Assembly (NCBI GenBank): GCA_016926595.1 | Contig: JAFGOG010000210.1 | Location: forward strand, 1-42,052 | Source: Anaerolineae bacterium | GTDB lineage: Bacteria; Chloroflexota; Anaerolineae; JAAYZQ01 | DNA length: 42,052 bases | Direction of reading: 5' to 3' | Part shown: one piece after another, positions 26,487 through 42,052 of the stretch | Layout: each line of letters starts with the position of its first letter | How positions within the stretch are numbered: the first letter of the stretch is position 1 | Program-made: the position numbers and the translations under genes | Notes under the pieces: model-generated | The model's input: the letters and a program-made list of their open reading frames with translations, nothing else | What the model was told of the DNA's origin: nothing | Database searches by the model: none

Positions 26487-28172
26487 TCAGATAATCACCG
26501 GTTCGCGATACTCCCCGAACACCTGCCGGAATATACCCATGATCTCGCCCAGCGTGGCATAGGCGCGCACGCAGTCGAGGATATACGGCATCGTGTTCTC
26601 GGTGCCGCATGCTGCCTGGCGCAGCGCCTCCAGCGTCGAGCCCAGTCGCTCGTTGTCTCGCTCGCGGCGGACCTGCTCCAGCCGTGCTACCTGGTGCGTA
26701 TAACCCTGTGGATCCATTTCCAGTAATGGGATGTGGATCGGTCCCTCTTCCACGTAATCGTTGACCCCGACCACCGTCCGCTGCCGGGCATCGATCTCGA
26801 TCTGGTAGCGGTACGCCGACTCGGCGATCTCGCGCTGCATGAACCCCTTCTCGATAGCCGGGATGACGCCACCCAACGCCTCGATCTTGTGAAAGTAATC
26901 GTACGCTTCCTGCTCCATGCGGTTGGTCAGCGTCTCGACGAAATAGGAACCGGCTAATGGATCCACCGTGTTGGTCACGCCGCTCTCGTGGGCGATGAGC
27001 TGTTGGGTACGCAGCGCGATCTTGACCGCGTATTCGCTGGGCAGAGCCAGCGCCTCGTCCATGCTGTTGGTGTGGAGCGACTGTGTGCCGCCCAGCACCG
27101 CGGCCAGCGCCTGCCAGGTGGTGCGCACGATGTTGTTCTCTGGCTGTTGTGCAGTCAGGCTACAGCCAGCCGTCTGGGTGTGGAACCGCAGCAGCCAGCT
27201 CCGCAGGCTCTTGGCGCCAAAGGTGTCACGCATCTCCCGCGCCCAGATGCGCCGCGCTGCCCGGAATTTGCAAATCTCTTCGAAAAAGTCGTTGTGCGAG
27301 TTGAAAAAGTAGGACAACCGTGGGGCAAAGGCGTCAATCTCCAGCCCACGGGCCAACCCCCAGCGCACGTATTCCAGACCGTCGGCCAGGGTGAAGGCCA
27401 GTTCCTGGACCGCCGTTGCCCCTGCCTCGCGAATGTGATAGCCGCTGATGCTGATCGTATTCCAGCGGGGCAGGTATTGGCTGCCAAACTCAAAGGTGTC
27501 GATCACCAGGCGCATCGACGGCTTTGGGGGGAAGACAAACTCCTTCTGGGCGATATACTCCTTCAAAATGTCATTCTGAATGGTGCCGCCCAGCACTTCC
27601 ATCGGGATGCCCCGCTTTTCGGCCATGACGATGTACATGGCCCACACGATCGCTGCCGGGCTGTTGATCGTCATCGATGTGGTGATCTGGTCTACGGGGA
27701 TGCCGTCGAATAGCACCTCCATGTCGGCCAACGACGACACGGCCACACCACACTTGCCAAACTCGCCCATGGCTTCAGACGCATCCGAGTCGTAGCCATA
27801 AAGTGTGGGCATGTCGAATGCCACCGATAAGCCAGTCTCACCGTGCTCCAGCAAGTATTTGTAGCGGGCGTTGGTCTCTTCCGCCGTGCCAAACCCGGCG
27901 AACATGCGCATCGTCCACAGTCGGCCGCGGTGCATGGTGGGGTGGATGCCGCGGGTGAAAGGGTACTCACCCGGAAATCCTAGGTCGCGCACATAGTCCA
28001 GGCTGGCCACATTGAGCGGGGTGTACAACCGCTCCACCGGGGCGCTGGAGGTCGTCACAAACCTGTCCGAAGGGATCCGTTCCGGGTGCTCGACCAGTGT
28101 CTTTTTGAGTGTGGTCTCTTCCCAGTGTTCCTTTTGCTCCTGCAATGCCTTTAACCTGCCCTGGTCAAACAT
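26487..28172 (-). CDS. B12-dependent acyl-CoA mutase large subunit, isobutyryl-CoA-mutase type
   Basis: About 561 residues, the TIM-barrel substrate domain only. The family core includes [47 protein letters not shown] and [16 protein letters not shown]. Two specificity positions differ from methylmalonyl-CoA mutase. The Tyr of RQYAGF is Phe here (RMFAGF, residue 91), and the Arg 118 residues later is Gln (KEYIAQKE, residue 209). Phe/Gln is the pair described for isobutyryl-CoA mutase. It may therefore interconvert isobutyryl- and n-butyryl-CoA, though annotation pipelines would call it methylmalonyl-CoA mutase. ATG at 28172 is preceded by GGAGG at five bases; an ATG at 28193 overlaps the mce stop and is possible. 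Confidence 0.85.
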
Positions 28173-28189
28173 GGTTGCCTCCAAGCCGA

Positions 28190-28594
28190 TCATATTGGCT
28201 GGTCGCGATGCTCGACCAGCTCCAGCAGCACACCGTGCATGCCCTTGGGATGCACAAAAGCTACTCGCCCGTGGGCTCCCTGCCGTGGAATTCTGTCGAT
28301 CAGTAGCACGCCATGGGCCTTGAGACGCTCCAATGCTGCTTCGATATCGTCCACTGCCAGGCAGATGTGGTGGATGCCCTCACCCCGGCTCTCCAGGAAC
28401 TTGGCGATACCGGTGTCGTCGGCTGTGGGCTGCACCAACTCGAGGTTTGTCTCGCCCACCGGCAAAAAGGCCACCTCGACCTTTTGATCCTGCACCTCGA
28501 CGATCTCTTCTAGCTGCAACCCCAAGGCCTCCTGGTAGACCTTGAGCGCCTCCTGAATATCACGCACGGCGATACCAATGTGGTCCAGCTTCAC
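28190..28594 (-). CDS. mce: Methylmalonyl-CoA epimerase
   Basis: A 134-residue vicinal-oxygen-chelate protein of normal length that interconverts (S)- and (R)-methylmalonyl-CoA. It has two glyoxalase-like beta-alpha-beta-beta-beta modules. The metal ligands lie in [12 protein letters not shown] (His), NLELVQP (Glu/Gln region), [12 protein letters not shown] (His) and GVLLELVEH (Glu). It lies between the regulator and the second mutase large subunit; its stop overlaps a possible upstream ATG of the mutase. The context agrees with the propionyl-CoA/succinyl-CoA route. Confidence 0.94.
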
Positions 28595-29109: not shown

Positions 29110-30774
29110 TTAGAACAGCGTGAATGCTTTGTATTCGCCAAAGACGCCGCGCAGAACGTCACAGATCTCGCCCAGGGTAGCGTACTTTTCCACTGCGTCC
29201 AGAATGAGCGGCATCAGAGTGTCGTCAGATTGAGCGCCAGCTACGAGGCGTACCAGCGCTGCTGACACTGTTTCGCTGTCTCTCCACCCCCGTAGGGCTT
29301 CGAGGCGTGCTGCCTGGCGTTCGCCCACGGCCGGATCGACGCGCAAAAGGCGAAGACCTGTCCCTTCGCCAGCCTGAAAGCGATTCACTCCGACTACAAC
29401 CTTGCCAGAGTAATCCACCGCGCGCTGCCAGTGATAGGCGCTTTCCTGGATTTCCCGCTGTATATATCCTTGCTCGATGGCTCGCAGGGCGCCACCCAGG
29501 GCGTCTATTTTTGAAATGTAGTCGATTGCCCGTTGCTCGATCTCGCCGGTCCACCTTTCGATGAGATAACTCCCCGCCAGGGGATCGATCGTGTCGGCCA
29601 CACCGCTTTCGTAGGCGATGATCTGCTGTGTACGCAGGGCGATCTGGACCGCTTCCTCAGTGGGCAGGCCCAGCGCTTCGTCGCGTGAGTTGGTGTGCAG
29701 TGATTGGGTTCCGCCCAGCACGGCGGCCAGGGCCTGCAAAGTGACCCGGACAATGTTGTTGTCCGGCTGCTGTGCGGTGAGCATCGAACCAGCCGTCTGG
29801 GTGTGGAAGCGCAGCATACACGAGCGCGAATCGCGGGCGCCGAACCTTTCGCGCATGATCCGCGCCCACAACCGGCGGGCAGCGCGGAACTTGGCCACCT
29901 CTTCCAAGAGGTTGTTGTGGGCGTTGAAGAAGAAGGACAAGCGAGGGGCAAAGTCGTCTACCGCCAGCCCGGCGTCGAGCGCCGCCTGGACATAGGTGAT
30001 GGCGTTAGCCAGAGTAAATGCAACTTCCTGGACTGCGGTGCAGCCTGCCTCGCGGATGTGGTAGCCGGAGATACTGATAGTGTTCCATTGGGGAATGTGA
30101 TCGCGGCAATAGCGGAACAGGTCGGTGACCAATCGCATCGACGGACCGGGTGGGTAGATATAGGTGCCGCGGGCAATGTACTCCTTCAGGATGTCGTTCT
30201 GGACTGTGCCCTGCAACTTGGTCGTATCTATGCCCTGCTTCCTGGCAACGGCAATGTACATGGCCAGCAAGACCGCGGCCGGGGCGTTGATGGTCATCGA
30301 AGTCGACACGCGATCCAACGGGATGCCGTCGAACAGCCGCTCCATGTCCTCCAGCGAGGAGATGGCCACGCCGACCTTACCTACCTCGCCAGCAGCCATT
30401 GGGTGGTCCGAATCGTAGCCGATCTGGGTGGGCAGGTCAAAGGCGACGGACAGGCCCGTCTGGCCCTGATCTAGTAGGTACTTGTAGCGAGTGTTCGTCT
30501 CTCGGGCGCTGCCAAAGCCGGCGTACTGGCGCATTGTCCAGAAGCGGCTGCGGTACATTGTGGGCTGAACGCCCCGGGTAAAGGGGTACTGGCTGGGAAA
30601 GCCCAGTTGGTGCGGATAGTCGATCTCTGCGTCGGCGGGCGTGTAAAACCGCTCGACCGGGATATCTGATTCCGTCTGAAATTGGGGCTGTCGCTCGGGA
30701 AAGCGGGACAACGCACTGGCCAGGAGTGTGGCTTCCCACTCCTCTTTGAGTTGGCTAACCTTCTCCTCGGACAT
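29110..30774 (-). CDS. Methylmalonyl-CoA mutase large subunit
   Basis: About 554 residues, the substrate-binding barrel of adenosylcobalamin-dependent methylmalonyl-CoA mutase. It has [40 protein letters not shown] and [16 protein letters not shown]. The specificity residues are the methylmalonyl type: Tyr in RQYAGF (residue 84) and Arg in KEYIARGTY (residue 202), spaced 118 as in the Propionibacterium enzyme. The B12 domain is absent and must come from a separate chain such as the 26051-26446 product. ATG at 30774 follows GGAG by six bases; the frame extends 12 codons further upstream without a ribosome site. Confidence 0.93.
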
Positions 30775-30808
30775 TTCTAACTCCAAACCGACTTTGCTGC
30801 AGACCTGC

Positions 30809-30828
30809 ACCGATGCTCAGGCATCGGT
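30809..30828. repeat. Hairpin between the biotin carrier and mutase genes
   Basis: ACCGATGC, loop TCAG, GCATCGGT: eight perfect pairs with a four-base loop, overlapping the TAA of the biotin carrier gene. No T-run follows. It may adjust the stability of the upstream and downstream parts of the operon mRNA. Confidence 0.5.
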
Positions 30829-38164: not shown

Positions 38165-39682
38165 CTACCGGCCTAGTAGTTCCACCCATACGTGGATGCG
38201 GGCTTGTAGGGTCGCTTCAAAATACTCGACTTTGATGGTATGCAGTCCCTCGTCGAGATAAATGTCCGCAGTCTTGTCGTCGACAGGGCCATCCTCCCAG
38301 GCGCGGATCAGTCGCCGTTCGTCCACCCACACGCGGGCGCCATCGTCCACCGTCAGGTGGAAACGATAATTGCCGGACTGGAACCACCTGCTTTGCGTCC
38401 ATCGCGCCGAAAAGTTGTCCGCTGGAACGGATGGACCGGGTGAGCCAGGTCCCCAATCCAGGTTCAGTTCCGATCCTATGTATTCCTGGACAAGCACCGG
38501 ATTTCCGTCTAGCTTCCGATTGTCAAAGTACTCGCCATACCACATACTGGGTGGCGCCGGCGTACTGGTCGTCGGCGTCGGGGTTGGCTCTACAACCTGC
38601 GACCAATCAAACTTGATCAGGGCTCCGCCGAGATTTTCATAGTATTCAATCCGCAGAGTGTGTGTACCTTGCGTCAGGTATAGATCGGCCACATAGGACG
38701 CTTGTCCGTCGTGCCACTCGTCGATCAAGAGAGTGTTGTCAACCCACAGGCGGGCGCCGTCGTCGACAGTGAGCGTGAAATGGAAGATCCCGTCCCGGAA
38801 CTGCCGGGCGCGCGTCCATCGTGCCGAGAACCCATTCATAGGGATGGCCGGCGCCGGCGAGCCCTCACCCCAGCTAAAGTCGACATACCCGTCATTGCGG
38901 ATGAGCACCGGATCACCCTGTAGCTCGCGGTTGGCGAAATATTCACCGCGCCAATCGGTGATCACAAGGGCAGTAGGCGTAAGAGTCGGAGTTGGGGTGT
39001 CGGTGGGCGGTATCGGCGTGGAAGTATCGGTGGGCAGCAACGGTGTGGGCGTACTGGTCGGCAGGGCAGTTAGCACCGGCACCGTATTGGTGGGAGTGGG
39101 CGCCACCAATGTGAACCGGGTAATGGCTTCCATATTCGAGCGGGTGCCTCGCCCAATTACATCGGCCCACGGTTGTCCCATCCAGCGGGCTTCGTTGGGG
39201 AAGGTAAAGGCAGTACGGATGTTGCCTGCCTCGTCGGCTACTGCCGCTGCATATGAGAATCCCCGGCCTGCCCCTTCTTGTGGCGAACGGAGAAAGACAA
39301 AGACCGGCTCTCCCGGCCACCAACCCTGACCAGTGACGGTGACCAAGGCGTTGATGTAGCCTTCCGTCGGATTGGCCGTGATCTGAGCCTGGCCCGGTAC
39401 ACCCGGCGAAGTTGTCTGGCCCGGGCCGACTAATGTGGCTAAAGGAGTCGCAGAACTGATGACAGGAGGAATGGCAGGTGCATTGCGCCTCAACAGGAAA
39501 ACAAGTAGAATTGCTAAGACGCACACAACCGCCGTGGCGAGTAGCGTCAAGGCTGCCACCGTATATCCAGAGATACCCCGAGAGGCGGGCTCCCCCTCTG
39601 GGTAATAGGCAGGCAGGGTCCAGGTGTCCTGTTCGTGCGACGACAATTGATCTGGCTGAGTCTGAGTCCTACGGACAGTCAC
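38165..39682 (-). CDS. Membrane-anchored protein with two PA14 domains
   Basis: About 505 residues. A short cytoplasmic N-terminus is followed by one membrane helix (VAALTLLATAVVCVLAILLV, ~40-60). An Ig-like region then contains GYINALVTVTGQGWWPGEPV, followed by a Thr/Pro-rich linker (TPTPLLPTDTSTPIPPTDTP). Two PA14-like repeats follow: WRGEYFANRELQGDPVLI...FSARWTRARQF...LTVDDGARLWVD and WYGEYFDNRKLDGNPVLV...FSARWTQSRWF...LTVDDGARVWVD. A second TPTPTT linker separates them. It is an extracellular, probably sugar-binding surface protein. GTG at 39682 is five bases after AGGGAGG; the frame begins slightly upstream without support. Confidence 0.84.
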   Translation of the reverse strand: MTVRRTQTQPDQLSSHEQDTWTLPAYYPEGEPASRGISGYTVAALTLLATAVVCVLAILLVFLLRRNAPAIPPVISSATPLATLVGPGQTTSPGVPGQAQITANPTEGYINALVTVTGQGWWPGEPVFVFLRSPQEGAGRGFSYAAAVADEAGNIRTAFTFPNEARWMGQPWADVIGRGTRSNMEAITRFTLVAPTPTNTVPVLTALPTSTPTPLLPTDTSTPIPPTDTPTPTLTPTALVITDWRGEYFANRELQGDPVLIRNDGYVDFSWGEGSPAPAIPMNGFSARWTRARQFRDGIFHFTLTVDDGARLWVDNTLLIDEWHDGQASYVADLYLTQGTHTLRIEYYENLGGALIKFDWSQVVEPTPTPTTSTPAPPSMWYGEYFDNRKLDGNPVLVQEYIGSELNLDWGPGSPGPSVPADNFSARWTQSRWFQSGNYRFHLTVDDGARVWVDERRLIRAWEDGPVDDKTADIYLDEGLHTIKVEYFEATLQARIHVWVELLGR

Positions 39683-41330
39683 AACAACCTCCCTTACCAA
39701 GTCCGTCCCCTATACTATAACGTCCGGGACCCGTCTCCAGTTCCGCTCCACCTGACCGCGAATAAGCAGTTAGCCATTTCCTCGTCACGGGCTGATTTTC
39801 GCCCAAAAAGGTTCCCATAACCCTTGACGGCTTGCGAAACTCCTTGTCGCCAGCGGCGCACCGAACACGGACAACCTGATACCCATCTTCGACGGTGAGC
39901 GTTGCTGCCAACTTCAGGTCCGCCAGCAGGCCACGCTTTTCCTCAAAGCTCGCTGCGGCCAGGTCAACCCCCTGTGCGACTTTGGCGGCGAACCGTTGCA
40001 GGCCAACGATCTGCTCGTTTGTTATGCTCGCCGTCTGCATTTGGGCCACAAGGCCGGCCCGCTGGTGCTCCAAGGCCGCAATCGTCGTGTCCAGTTGGGT
40101 TTTCTTGGCGGTCAGCACGCCCTTTGAGAAATCACCCCCGACATATAGATCAAGCAGGCGCCCTAACTGGCGGCGATTCTCGGCCAGCAGGTCGTCAACG
40201 ATCTTCATCCTTTCCAGGATCGGAGCATTGGCTCGCTGACACTCGGCGGCATACTGTCTCAATCCCTTTTCCAGCGACGCAGGGTTGGTCAGTGTTTCTT
40301 TGACCCATGCCCACACTTCGCTGTCAACCTGGTCAGTCGCAAACGAGGGCAACCGGCACCGCTTGCCGTGCTCGTCGTTGCTGCCACAACAGTTATAGTA
40401 CCGATATACCTTCCCGTCTACGGTTTTGCCACTACCCGCGACCGCCTTGTTGCACAGGCCACAGCGTACACGGCCAGCCAGCAGGTATTCATATTTGCGC
40501 GGAACCTTCCGGCGGGTCTTGTCCATCTTGCCTGCCTTTGCCTCTTCCCAAATATCGGAGGCCACGATTGCCGGCACCTGCACAGTGACACCTGCATAGC
40601 GCCAAGTCCCGGTGTAGGTTTCGTTTTGCATGATACTGGTGACGGCCCCCGCCCACCATCCTCCCAACCGTTCCCTGCTACATTTCCAATGCGTATCGGC
40701 CCACGTTGGCACCCCCATTTCGTTCAATCGGCGTGCTATGGCCCGGTAAGACATTGGCCCGCTCTCACCATCGCCATAAATATACCATATGAACATCAGG
40801 CGGACAATTTGCGCTTCCGGCTCGTACACGACAAGCACAGTCCGCCCGTTGACATCCTTTTCCAGCCGATAGCCATACGGCGGCCCGCCGTTCCCCATTA
40901 CCTGTCCATCCTTTGCCTTCAGCAATCGCGCCCGCGTTGTGCGCTCGGCTGTCTTCGCCCGCTCGTATTCAGCCACAACTGCTTTGACGTGCTTCATAAA
41001 GTCGCCTTCGGGCGTATCTGGATACTCCCCCAAGACATACTCGATACCCACCCCGGCCCGTCTCAACTCTTCCTCCACAATCAACTGCTTGGCGAGGTTG
41101 CGGCTCAGTCGGTCTAGCTCGCGAGGTATCAGAACGTCGAAAGCGCCAGCCGCTGCCATTTCCCTGATACGGGTTAGCCCTTCCAGCTCAAAGGATGCGC
41201 CGCTCGCGCCTTTGTCGTCTTCTTGAACCTCTGCCACGATCTGATACCCTCTGCTCAGAGCGTATTCCCGCGCCATTTCTAGTTGGCCGGCGAGGTGCTG
41301 GCCACCCGCTATCCGATCCGTACTCGCCAC
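39669..41330 (-). CDS. Large serine recombinase, truncated at the catalytic N-terminus
   Basis: About 553 residues from GTG 41330, where the recognisable sequence starts. The resolvase domain lacks its first strand. It begins ASTDRIAGG then LAGQLEMAREYALSRGYQI, and has the active-site helix motif ELDRLSRN. The nucleophile Ser (in STDR) is present, but the catalytic Arg normally two residues before it is replaced (VVAS). A recombinase domain follows (GNGGPPYGYRLEKD, MSYRAIARRLNEMGVPTW, IMQNETYTGTWRYAG). Then come a zinc ribbon (RVRCGLCNKAVAG...YNCCGSND...RCRLPSF) and a coiled-coil tail. There is no ribosome site. The C-terminal ~15 residues run into the PA14 gene leader. It is probably an inactive remnant or half of a chimeric junction. 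Confidence 0.8.
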   Translation of the reverse strand: MASTDRIAGGQHLAGQLEMAREYALSRGYQIVAEVQEDDKGASGASFELEGLTRIREMAAAGAFDVLIPRELDRLSRNLAKQLIVEEELRRAGVGIEYVLGEYPDTPEGDFMKHVKAVVAEYERAKTAERTTRARLLKAKDGQVMGNGGPPYGYRLEKDVNGRTVLVVYEPEAQIVRLMFIWYIYGDGESGPMSYRAIARRLNEMGVPTWADTHWKCSRERLGGWWAGAVTSIMQNETYTGTWRYAGVTVQVPAIVASDIWEEAKAGKMDKTRRKVPRKYEYLLAGRVRCGLCNKAVAGSGKTVDGKVYRYYNCCGSNDEHGKRCRLPSFATDQVDSEVWAWVKETLTNPASLEKGLRQYAAECQRANAPILERMKIVDDLLAENRRQLGRLLDLYVGGDFSKGVLTAKKTQLDTTIAALEHQRAGLVAQMQTASITNEQIVGLQRFAAKVAQGVDLAAASFEEKRGLLADLKLAATLTVEDGYQVVRVRCAAGDKEFRKPSRVMGTFLGENQPVTRKWLTAYSRSGGAELETGPGRYSIGDGLGKGGCCDCP

Positions 41331-42052
41331 GACGTGCAGATCTGGCGCAACCTCGACTGGGAGGGCGCTTTCCGGTTGACTGCCTTGAGCGGGCGGATCG
41401 ACCCGGTGGCCATGCGCAGTTTCTTCAAGTACACCCGGCAGCACGGGGGCGTGGTGTTCATGAGCCACGCTACGGCAGCCAAGGTCGGCGGCGACTTTGA
41501 CGGCGACAACTTTCAGATTATGCCGGTCTCGCGGCAGCACAAGCCGCTGGCCGAGATCCGCAACCCCAACCGCGACTGGTCTGACCTGACGCCGCTGGTC
41601 GAGCAGGTGCGCCGCGAGGGTTGGGGCCAGGAGGTAACCACGCCCAAGGTCAAGCGCCGCTTGGCGACCCACGTCGCCCCGGAACGATCGGAAGATGTGA
41701 CCGGCAGGAACCGTCCCTGGCTGGCATCGGCCGCCATCCACCAAGGTGGCCACCGCCAGGCGTTTCTGGCAGATGCTGACCGGCACCTGGATGCGCAAGC
41801 CCTGGACGCTGAGGCCCGGCAGACGACTGTCCAAACCCTCGCCGACGCTGCCCAACACCCCGACCAGAGCCTGGACGCCGCCGTCGAGATTGCCCAGGCC
41901 CACGGTTTTGACGCCCATGCGTGGCTTACTGGGCGAGAGCCAGACCTGTTCGCTCTCGCGAGAGCCTACAACCGCGAGCAGCTGGCCCGCCAGGCGCTGA
42001 AGAACATGGACTCGGACCTGGGCCAGATCGTCTACACCATCTCCCGGGTCAA
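41283..42052 (+). CDS. Fragment of an RNA-polymerase-like (DFDGD, double-psi barrel) protein
   Basis: An uninterrupted plus-strand frame from just after a stop at 41280-41282 to the window edge, about 256 codons, without a plausible start. Codon third positions are strongly GC-rich, as expected of coding DNA. It reads LATRYPIRTRHDVQIW, GGVVFMSHATAAKVGGDFDG and DNFQIMPVS (DFDGD at 41493-41507). Near the edge it reads NMDSDLGQIVYTISRV. DFDGD plus a preceding RxP and a later DxLGQI resemble the catalytic barrel of RNA polymerase beta-prime and of YonO/QDE-1-type single-chain polymerases. The first ~48 bases overlap the recombinase frame, so the true gene part may begin near 41331. Its 5' part is missing. 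Family assignment is tentative. Confidence 0.55.
   Translation, partial: MAGEVLATRYPIRTRHDVQIWRNLDWEGAFRLTALSGRIDPVAMRSFFKYTRQHGGVVFMSHATAAKVGGDFDGDNFQIMPVSRQHKPLAEIRNPNRDWSDLTPLVEQVRREGWGQEVTTPKVKRRLATHVAPERSEDVTGRNRPWLASAAIHQGGHRQAFLADADRHLDAQALDAEARQTTVQTLADAAQHPDQSLDAAVEIAQAHGFDAHAWLTGREPDLFALARAYNREQLARQALKNMDSDLGQIVYTISRV

Follow-up and report, generated by a model that had tools for sequence, protein, structure and literature searches.

A broken gene for a probable element-borne, single-chain, two-barrel RNA polymerase at the end of an Anaerolineae contig

The stretch of DNA analysed here, referred to as the window, is a contig of 42,052 nucleotides from an Anaerolineae bacterium (JAFGOG010000210.1, assembly GCA_016926595.1). 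The gene fragment at its right end probably encodes the catalytic half of an RNA polymerase that has two double-psi barrels in a single chain, is borne by a mobile element and transcribes the genes of that element from a DNA template. A preliminary description of the window had already proposed the catalytic part of a single-chain polymerase from a mobile element or phage, and this proposal is supported by one-chain relatives of approximately 720–1300 amino acids, by two predicted folds and by plasmid and conjugation contexts. The carrier of the gene is probably a conjugative or plasmid-like element. In the intact enzyme, a first barrel would provide two invariant lysines and a second barrel the DFDGD motif, with three aspartates to hold the catalytic magnesium. 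The second barrel would be followed by a bridge helix, in which one glycine is invariant, and then by a trigger-loop lysine. From the family, fold, residues, distribution and neighbours we infer that DNA is most likely the template from which the enzyme makes RNA, as it is for the YonO and P23-45 phage enzymes, and that element genes could be transcribed without the host RNA polymerase.

The polymerase fragment lies on the plus strand at positions 41289–42052 and is open at the contig end. The frame itself, as had been described, is open from 41283 (41283–42050, 256 codons) and continues past the contig edge. It contains GGDFDGDNF and, further on, MDSDLGQIVY. DFDGD, encoded at 41493–41507 (+), was assigned by motif and alignment as the loop of the second double-psi barrel that binds the catalytic metal, and LGQIVY, encoded at 42018–42035 (+), was assigned by motif as the bridge-helix segment with its invariant glycine. 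Between barrel and bridge helix there is a stretch with approximate limits 41523–42002 (+), in which about 120 residues form a mostly helical insertion. The window contains just the second barrel and a part of the region downstream of it; the trigger-loop lysine lies beyond the end of the window. The fragment, designated P0001, aligns to residues 435–686 of a 999-amino-acid protein encoded by a complete gene in a Chloroflexi metagenome-assembled genome (locus L003), and to residues 444–697 of its closest relative, P0058. The first 434 residues of the L003 protein are absent from the window (tblastn), where polymerase similarity is found only from 41289 on. As the first barrel is missing and the fragment abuts a truncated recombinase gene, the window copy cannot work as it stands.

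Compared with the L003 copy, the fragment shows 66, 47 and 115 differences at the first, second and third codon positions, respectively, with nonsynonymous and synonymous divergences (dN, dS) of 0.25 and 1.09 over 252 codons. These values and the excess at third positions are as expected of a protein maintained by selection. A chance occurrence of the motif was ruled out, since the fragment aligns to full-length relatives (89% identity to P0058) and the codon-position pattern is selective. The frame is also rich in G and C at third codon positions (GC3), as noted earlier: GC3 is 0.83 for 41289–42050, against 0.64–0.79 in seven other window genes, the recombinase gene having 0.65.

Relatives of the fragment were found in genomes, protein collections and plasmids. 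The L003 copy, one relative from a pattern scan of GTDB genomes, is 68% identical over residues 3–256. With the L003 protein as query, 7,995 candidates were scored and 46 proteins retrieved at E ≤ 0.001; their length is mostly about 1000 amino acids, and five are labelled Anaerolineae by their source. Identity to the fragment is 89% for P0058 (1005 amino acids), 63–87% for 42 others, and lowest for P0073 (42%), P0077 (31%) and P0076 (30%). In place of a source, P0058 carries the mark used for proteins encoded in the window; its cluster perhaps takes in the window fragment, although this covers only a quarter of P0058. A tree placed the fragment beside P0058 (support 88), within a clade of 43 rows (support 100). 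This was a quick tree of 125 rows with long-branch warnings, used solely for this placement; apart from P0001 it left out rows under 550 amino acids, and also P0073, P0075 and P0008. A search with the family profile gave 58 proteins at E ≤ 0.001 among 7,992 scored.

In genomes of the class the gene is rare. A scan of 400 genomes from the phylum detected it in at least one, which was the centre of the scan itself; in the class it was detected in at least three of 396 by single protein and four of 396 by profile, these counts being lower bounds with about two candidates scored per genome; among the class hits, one genome (G435) has it in pieces and another (G692) gave a weak match. The order scan gave one of two genomes. 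Such rarity in genomes of the class (4/396) is consistent with accessory DNA. The pieces in G435, at C507 4528–5412 and C92 1620–1973, include one with two internal stop codons, a decaying copy. Against 72,556 plasmid records, the fragment gave six weak tblastn matches (E 0.09–0.6), five of them to Pseudanabaena plasmids (30% over residues 3–93); pairwise comparison with the protein of one such plasmid gave E 2e-7. P0058 matched 48 of these plasmid records at E ≤ 0.1, the best 40 of which are all cyanobacterial and are annotated 'hypothetical protein' at the match. Typing of the 48 gave 16 conjugative, 11 mobilizable and 21 non-mobilizable plasmids. In the phages collection there was no match for P0001 (E up to 1) or P0077 (E up to 0.1), and among viral contigs none for P0001 or P0058 and one for P0077. 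P0010 matches 76 phage records (best E about 2e-4), covering 13–22% of its length among the best 20 of the 76.

The architecture of the enzyme is read from the intact relatives. DFDGD is kept in all 45 Anaerolineae-type rows, the fragment included, and D512, D514, D516, G688 and K727 of P0058 are invariant in 39 of 39 rows. G688 and K727 were equated by motif and spacing with G886 and K923 of RDR2, numbered as in PMC8713982. By the same reasoning, the DxLGxI segment that had been pointed out after the barrel corresponds to the bridge-helix glycine region. The first barrel of intact relatives has two invariant lysines (Lys245 and Lys273 in P0058). The distance from triad to glycine is 172 residues in P0058, 55 in P0077 and 51 in P0002, each figure being that of a single row, as the automatic choice of glycine was false in many rows and gave none for P0001. 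The insertion of about 120 residues is absent from compact relatives. The double-psi barrel that had been predicted around DFDGD is supported by the structure model of P0077, in which VCP/p97 N domains were placed on residues 303–383 by VIA-align, spanning DFDGD at 371–375; the VCP/p97 N domain holds a double-psi barrel. Over the catalytic region, the models of P0058 and P0077 align with RDR2, QDE-1, gp62 and gp64. RDR2 is the top Foldseek match of both models, and for P0077 the phage protein gp64 ties with RDR2 by VIA. It may fairly be inferred from fold and residues together that the chemistry would be that of two-barrel polymerases in general.

Profile comparisons connect the family to several known groups. 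The PHROG family phrog_34895, to which no function is assigned, matches all six full-length members tried (P0058 9.6e-24, P0077 1.9e-40, P0002 3.7e-49, and P0010, P0016 and P0020), and neither this nor any polymerase PHROG matches the fragment. The Pfam family of cellular RNA-dependent RNA polymerases (RdRPs), PF05183, has a cut-off of 23.8 bits, which is passed by P0077 (37.2) and P0076 (25.6), both outside the clade of the window, and is not reached within that clade by P0055 (13.2) or P0037 (10.4). P0004 (23.7) and P0028 (17.5) also score below it; P0033, P0040 and P0061 have no match up to E 1, nor has the L003 protein up to E 0.1. YonO itself matches no Pfam family up to E 1; the score of one actinophage polymerase to PF05183 is 14.0 bits. 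A kinship with YonO-type phage enzymes may be indicated by hhalign, in which a profile of YonO and four actinophage proteins is matched by the family profile with 96% probability (E 4.3e-9) across 82 columns around barrel two, but YonO by itself with only 4%. A profile search of PDB sequences gave weak matches only (P23-45 gp96 0.049, QDE-1 0.42). No unrelated family exceeded its curated cut-off for the fragment in Pfam or PHROG.

A fragment of the housekeeping RpoC, which the preliminary description had argued against, would share the DxDGD loop and the double-psi barrel, and a distant relative, P0026, has a weak match to Rpb1 domain 2 (12.5 bits, cut-off 25.3). However, no Rpb1 or RpoC Pfam domain was found in P0001 up to E 10, or in P0033, P0037, P0040, P0055 and P0061 up to E 1. 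The full-length relatives differ from RpoC, and the structural match to the largest subunit, RpoC/Rpb1, is limited to the segment that extends from the barrel through the bridge and trigger region. RpoC was therefore rejected, with hardly any probability left to it.

The neighbourhoods of relatives point to mobile DNA. The carrier of the L003 copy, on contig C3 of genome G001, has a conjugation gene, for a coupling protein. The polymerase gene there (258448–261447) borders a GC3-rich block that encodes HU (263842–264126), this TraG/VirD4-type coupling protein (264123–266069; PF02534, 9.4e-36), a HerA/AAA-like ATPase below cut-off (269526–271589), single-stranded DNA-binding protein (SSB; 281823–282527) and a winged helix-turn-helix (wHTH) protein with a DnaA_N domain (283070–283975). 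The contig also has an RNase H-like stretch without Pfam match (277869–278567) and helicase pieces of SNF2 type (225496–229738). By shared open reading frame families, only the polymerase, SSB, the RNase H-like stretch and the ATPase link G001 to other loci. On a contig from IMG/VR (L014), an RNase H-like frame (PF13456, 24.1 bits, cut-off 21.6) is next upstream and SSB next downstream of the polymerase gene. A portal-like protein (5.4e-6) supports a phage origin of this contig; no structural-protein match was obtained with nine further proteins. Among the cyanobacterial plasmids, those of Pseudanabaena have an Eco57I-type methylase and a SNF2-type helicase downstream of the polymerase gene, and those of Phormidium and Anabaena have HU there. 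The conjugative Gloeocapsa plasmid pGLO7428.02 (L031) has dnaN, dnaX and holA of its own close to the polymerase gene.

Transcription of element genes is the likeliest use of the enzyme, and its main rival is priming: the polymerase might chiefly make RNA primers on the single-stranded DNA of the element, to start the strand copied during replication or following conjugative transfer. The adjoining RNase H-like and SSB genes in L014, the SSB, HU and wHTH–DnaA_N proteins of the G001 element, and the genes dnaN, dnaX and holA in Gloeocapsa would suit such a role, and QDE-1 structures, judging from their titles, include DNA templates. On the other hand, two of the plasmids have replication proteins of their own (CyRepA1 on p2 of Planktothrix agardhii and a VapE protein on the Phormidium plasmid), and the proven phage relatives transcribe genes. 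Priming is regarded as unlikely.

Several points weigh against a DNA-templated polymerase that transcribes element genes. The only Pfam match of the fragment is RdRP (PF05183), at 11.6 bits and E 0.11, below the cut-off. Since the fragment falls short of this cut-off and matches no polymerase PHROG, the case rests on the full-length relatives. Against YonO alone, the family profile reaches a probability of 4% (E 0.01) in hhalign. The SSB, RNase H-like and HU neighbours are equally compatible with DNA replication and with transcription. No assay of any family member was found, nor could a promoter, a sigma-like partner or a target gene be identified. Furthermore, the template is unreadable from the fold, because RDR2, which copies RNA, comes first by Foldseek for both models. 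An RNA-copying enzyme of the RDR2 kind, serving regulation or defence in bacterial cells, would agree with this ranking, with the score of P0077 and with the precomputed PF05183 assignment of 14 of the 58 family proteins. Nevertheless, such a role is improbable, given the tie of gp64 with RDR2 for P0077 and the neighbourhoods read, in which no Dicer- or Argonaute-like neighbour is named, although no profile or defence-library search was aimed at them. This absence is qualified by two plasmids. A lone cas6 gene lies about 27 kb from the polymerase on the Phormidium yuhuli plasmid (L052 30565–31626), and on Oscillatoria pOSC7112.01 (L035 2184–7768) a CD-NTase/SAVED defence locus and an E2/ThiF-type cluster are directly upstream of the polymerase gene. 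For transcription of element genes, a DNA template is suggested by analogy with the phage enzymes: YonO copies DNA into RNA, according to PMC5467207, and so do the P23-45 enzymes (PMC10770324).

In comparison with the single-subunit polymerases of phages and plasmids (YonO of SPbeta, gp64 and gp96 of P23-45, gp66 of crAss phi14:2), the family likewise has two double-psi barrels in one chain, the DxDGD triad, the bridge-helix glycine and the trigger-loop lysine. It differs from the YonO-type enzymes in its hosts, in the insertion before the bridge helix of the Anaerolineae clade and in that its activity is predicted. With the plant and fungal gene-silencing enzymes RDR2 and QDE-1 it shares the order of barrels and helices, and the triad, glycine and lysine at similar spacing, and these proteins are the best Foldseek matches, with only 12–16% identity in the structural alignments. 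In contrast to the cellular RdRPs, the fragment and the clade members tried stay below the PF05183 cut-off, and no RNA interference (RNAi) gene is named in the neighbourhoods of family members read. Earlier papers mention YonO-like proteins in firmicutes, cyanobacteria and two genomes of the Cytophaga–Flavobacterium–Bacteroides group (PMC5467207), likely mobile elements in Firmicutes and Cyanobacteria (PMC7598289), and a derivation of the eukaryotic RNAi polymerase from phage enzymes (PMC5303251, PMC7281927). Older key papers excepted, no description of Chloroflexota members or their conjugative context was found in the titles and abstract openings among the matches listed.

The analysis unites cyanobacterial-plasmid 'hypothetical proteins', phrog_34895 and the Chloroflexota clade as one complete-looking two-barrel polymerase family. 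If the proposed function is true, conjugative elements would have a means of transcription or priming that is independent of the host. As some of its bacterial members pass the cellular RdRP cut-off, the family renders the origin of the RNAi polymerases and the choice of template testable, and compact members of about 720 residues, such as P0077 with 719, should suit expression. More speculatively, and with a rather low probability, the family of plasmids and conjugative elements might be the nearest bacterial kin of the eukaryotic RNAi polymerases. An element of this sort, and not a YonO-kind phage, would then be the source of the ancestor of RDR and QDE-1, and once transfer had taken place family members would act on single strands of the element's nucleic acid.

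To the left of the fragment lies the 5′-truncated gene of a large serine recombinase (39669–41296, minus strand; right limit approximate), assigned by Pfam and relatives. The recombinase reported earlier beside the polymerase is thus real (Resolvase 1.5e-22, Recombinase 4.2e-10, Zn_ribbon_recom 4e-9), and it has relatives in 89 of 249 genomes of the class, but the adjacency is a break in both genes. Likewise, the truncation described at the contig end stands and an additional cut exists at the left: the fragment is cut at both ends, because homology begins at 41289, and not at 41283, and the frame leaves the contig. To the right of 41289, 54 of 60 bases equal the L003 DNA, and to the left agreement is no better than random. 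The five best recombinase relatives (44–47% identity) begin ...KR(A/T)VLYARVS(G/S)DDR......RNL(A/S)GQ, of which the window protein retains at most LAGQLEM onwards; approximately the first 22 codons are missing, including the catalytic serine of YARVS. DNA alignment and recombinase comparison define a junction at 41286–41296, where up to about 11 bp can be assigned to either gene by codon reasoning. The minus frame in this overlap reads VASTDRIAGGQHLAGQ, which resembles the serine motif. In the five best relatives the serine is one position further from the leucine than in the overlap, and a distant relative, L023 (35%), shares the spacing of the window; the spacing is therefore not decisive. 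A real recombinase N-terminus was rejected and the resemblance taken as chance, because the DNA is polymerase-like, YAR is lacking and the L003 minus strand is, by eye, free of the motif.

Either a deletion that joined two divergent genes within one element or a chimera would account for the junction. The chances are about even that the join at 41289 arose in assembly or amplification and is not the DNA of one cell: the two genes break off at a single point, 763 bp short of the contig end, the sequence shared at the join is at most about 11 bp, and GC3 changes from 0.65 on the left to 0.83 on the right. Yet a real deletion between divergent recombinase and polymerase genes would look identical, and P0075 is another fused, N-terminally deleted polymerase copy. 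Integration at an attachment site inside the polymerase gene is unsupported, as both genes are cut and no direct repeat is present at 41289; the seven families of short direct repeats in 39400–42052 all lie elsewhere.

Some minor observations concern the junction and the carriers. A 14-nucleotide imperfect inverted pair (39530–39543 and 41321–41334) flanks the recombinase gene, at about chance level by our estimate. In P0075, from a cluster of seven sequences, a winged-helix/DnaA_N protein, which by its domains resembles the wHTH–DnaA_N protein of G001 (283070–283975), is fused to the catalytic half of the polymerase; the polymerase part starts some 20 codons upstream of the point where the window copy is joined. 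P0066 has eight extra in-frame residues (GEVL-RSTASLAV-ATRYPIR) around position 443, a few codons from the window cut, and its end looks frameshifted. P0066 and P0075 are two cases, too few for a hotspot at the junction codon. The polymerase-bearing plasmid p2 of Planktothrix agardhii also has an elongation factor Tu gene (L053 25436–26620). Lastly, the chromosomal part of the window contains two genes for methylmalonyl-CoA mutase large chains close to each other, at 26487–28193 and 29110–30810.
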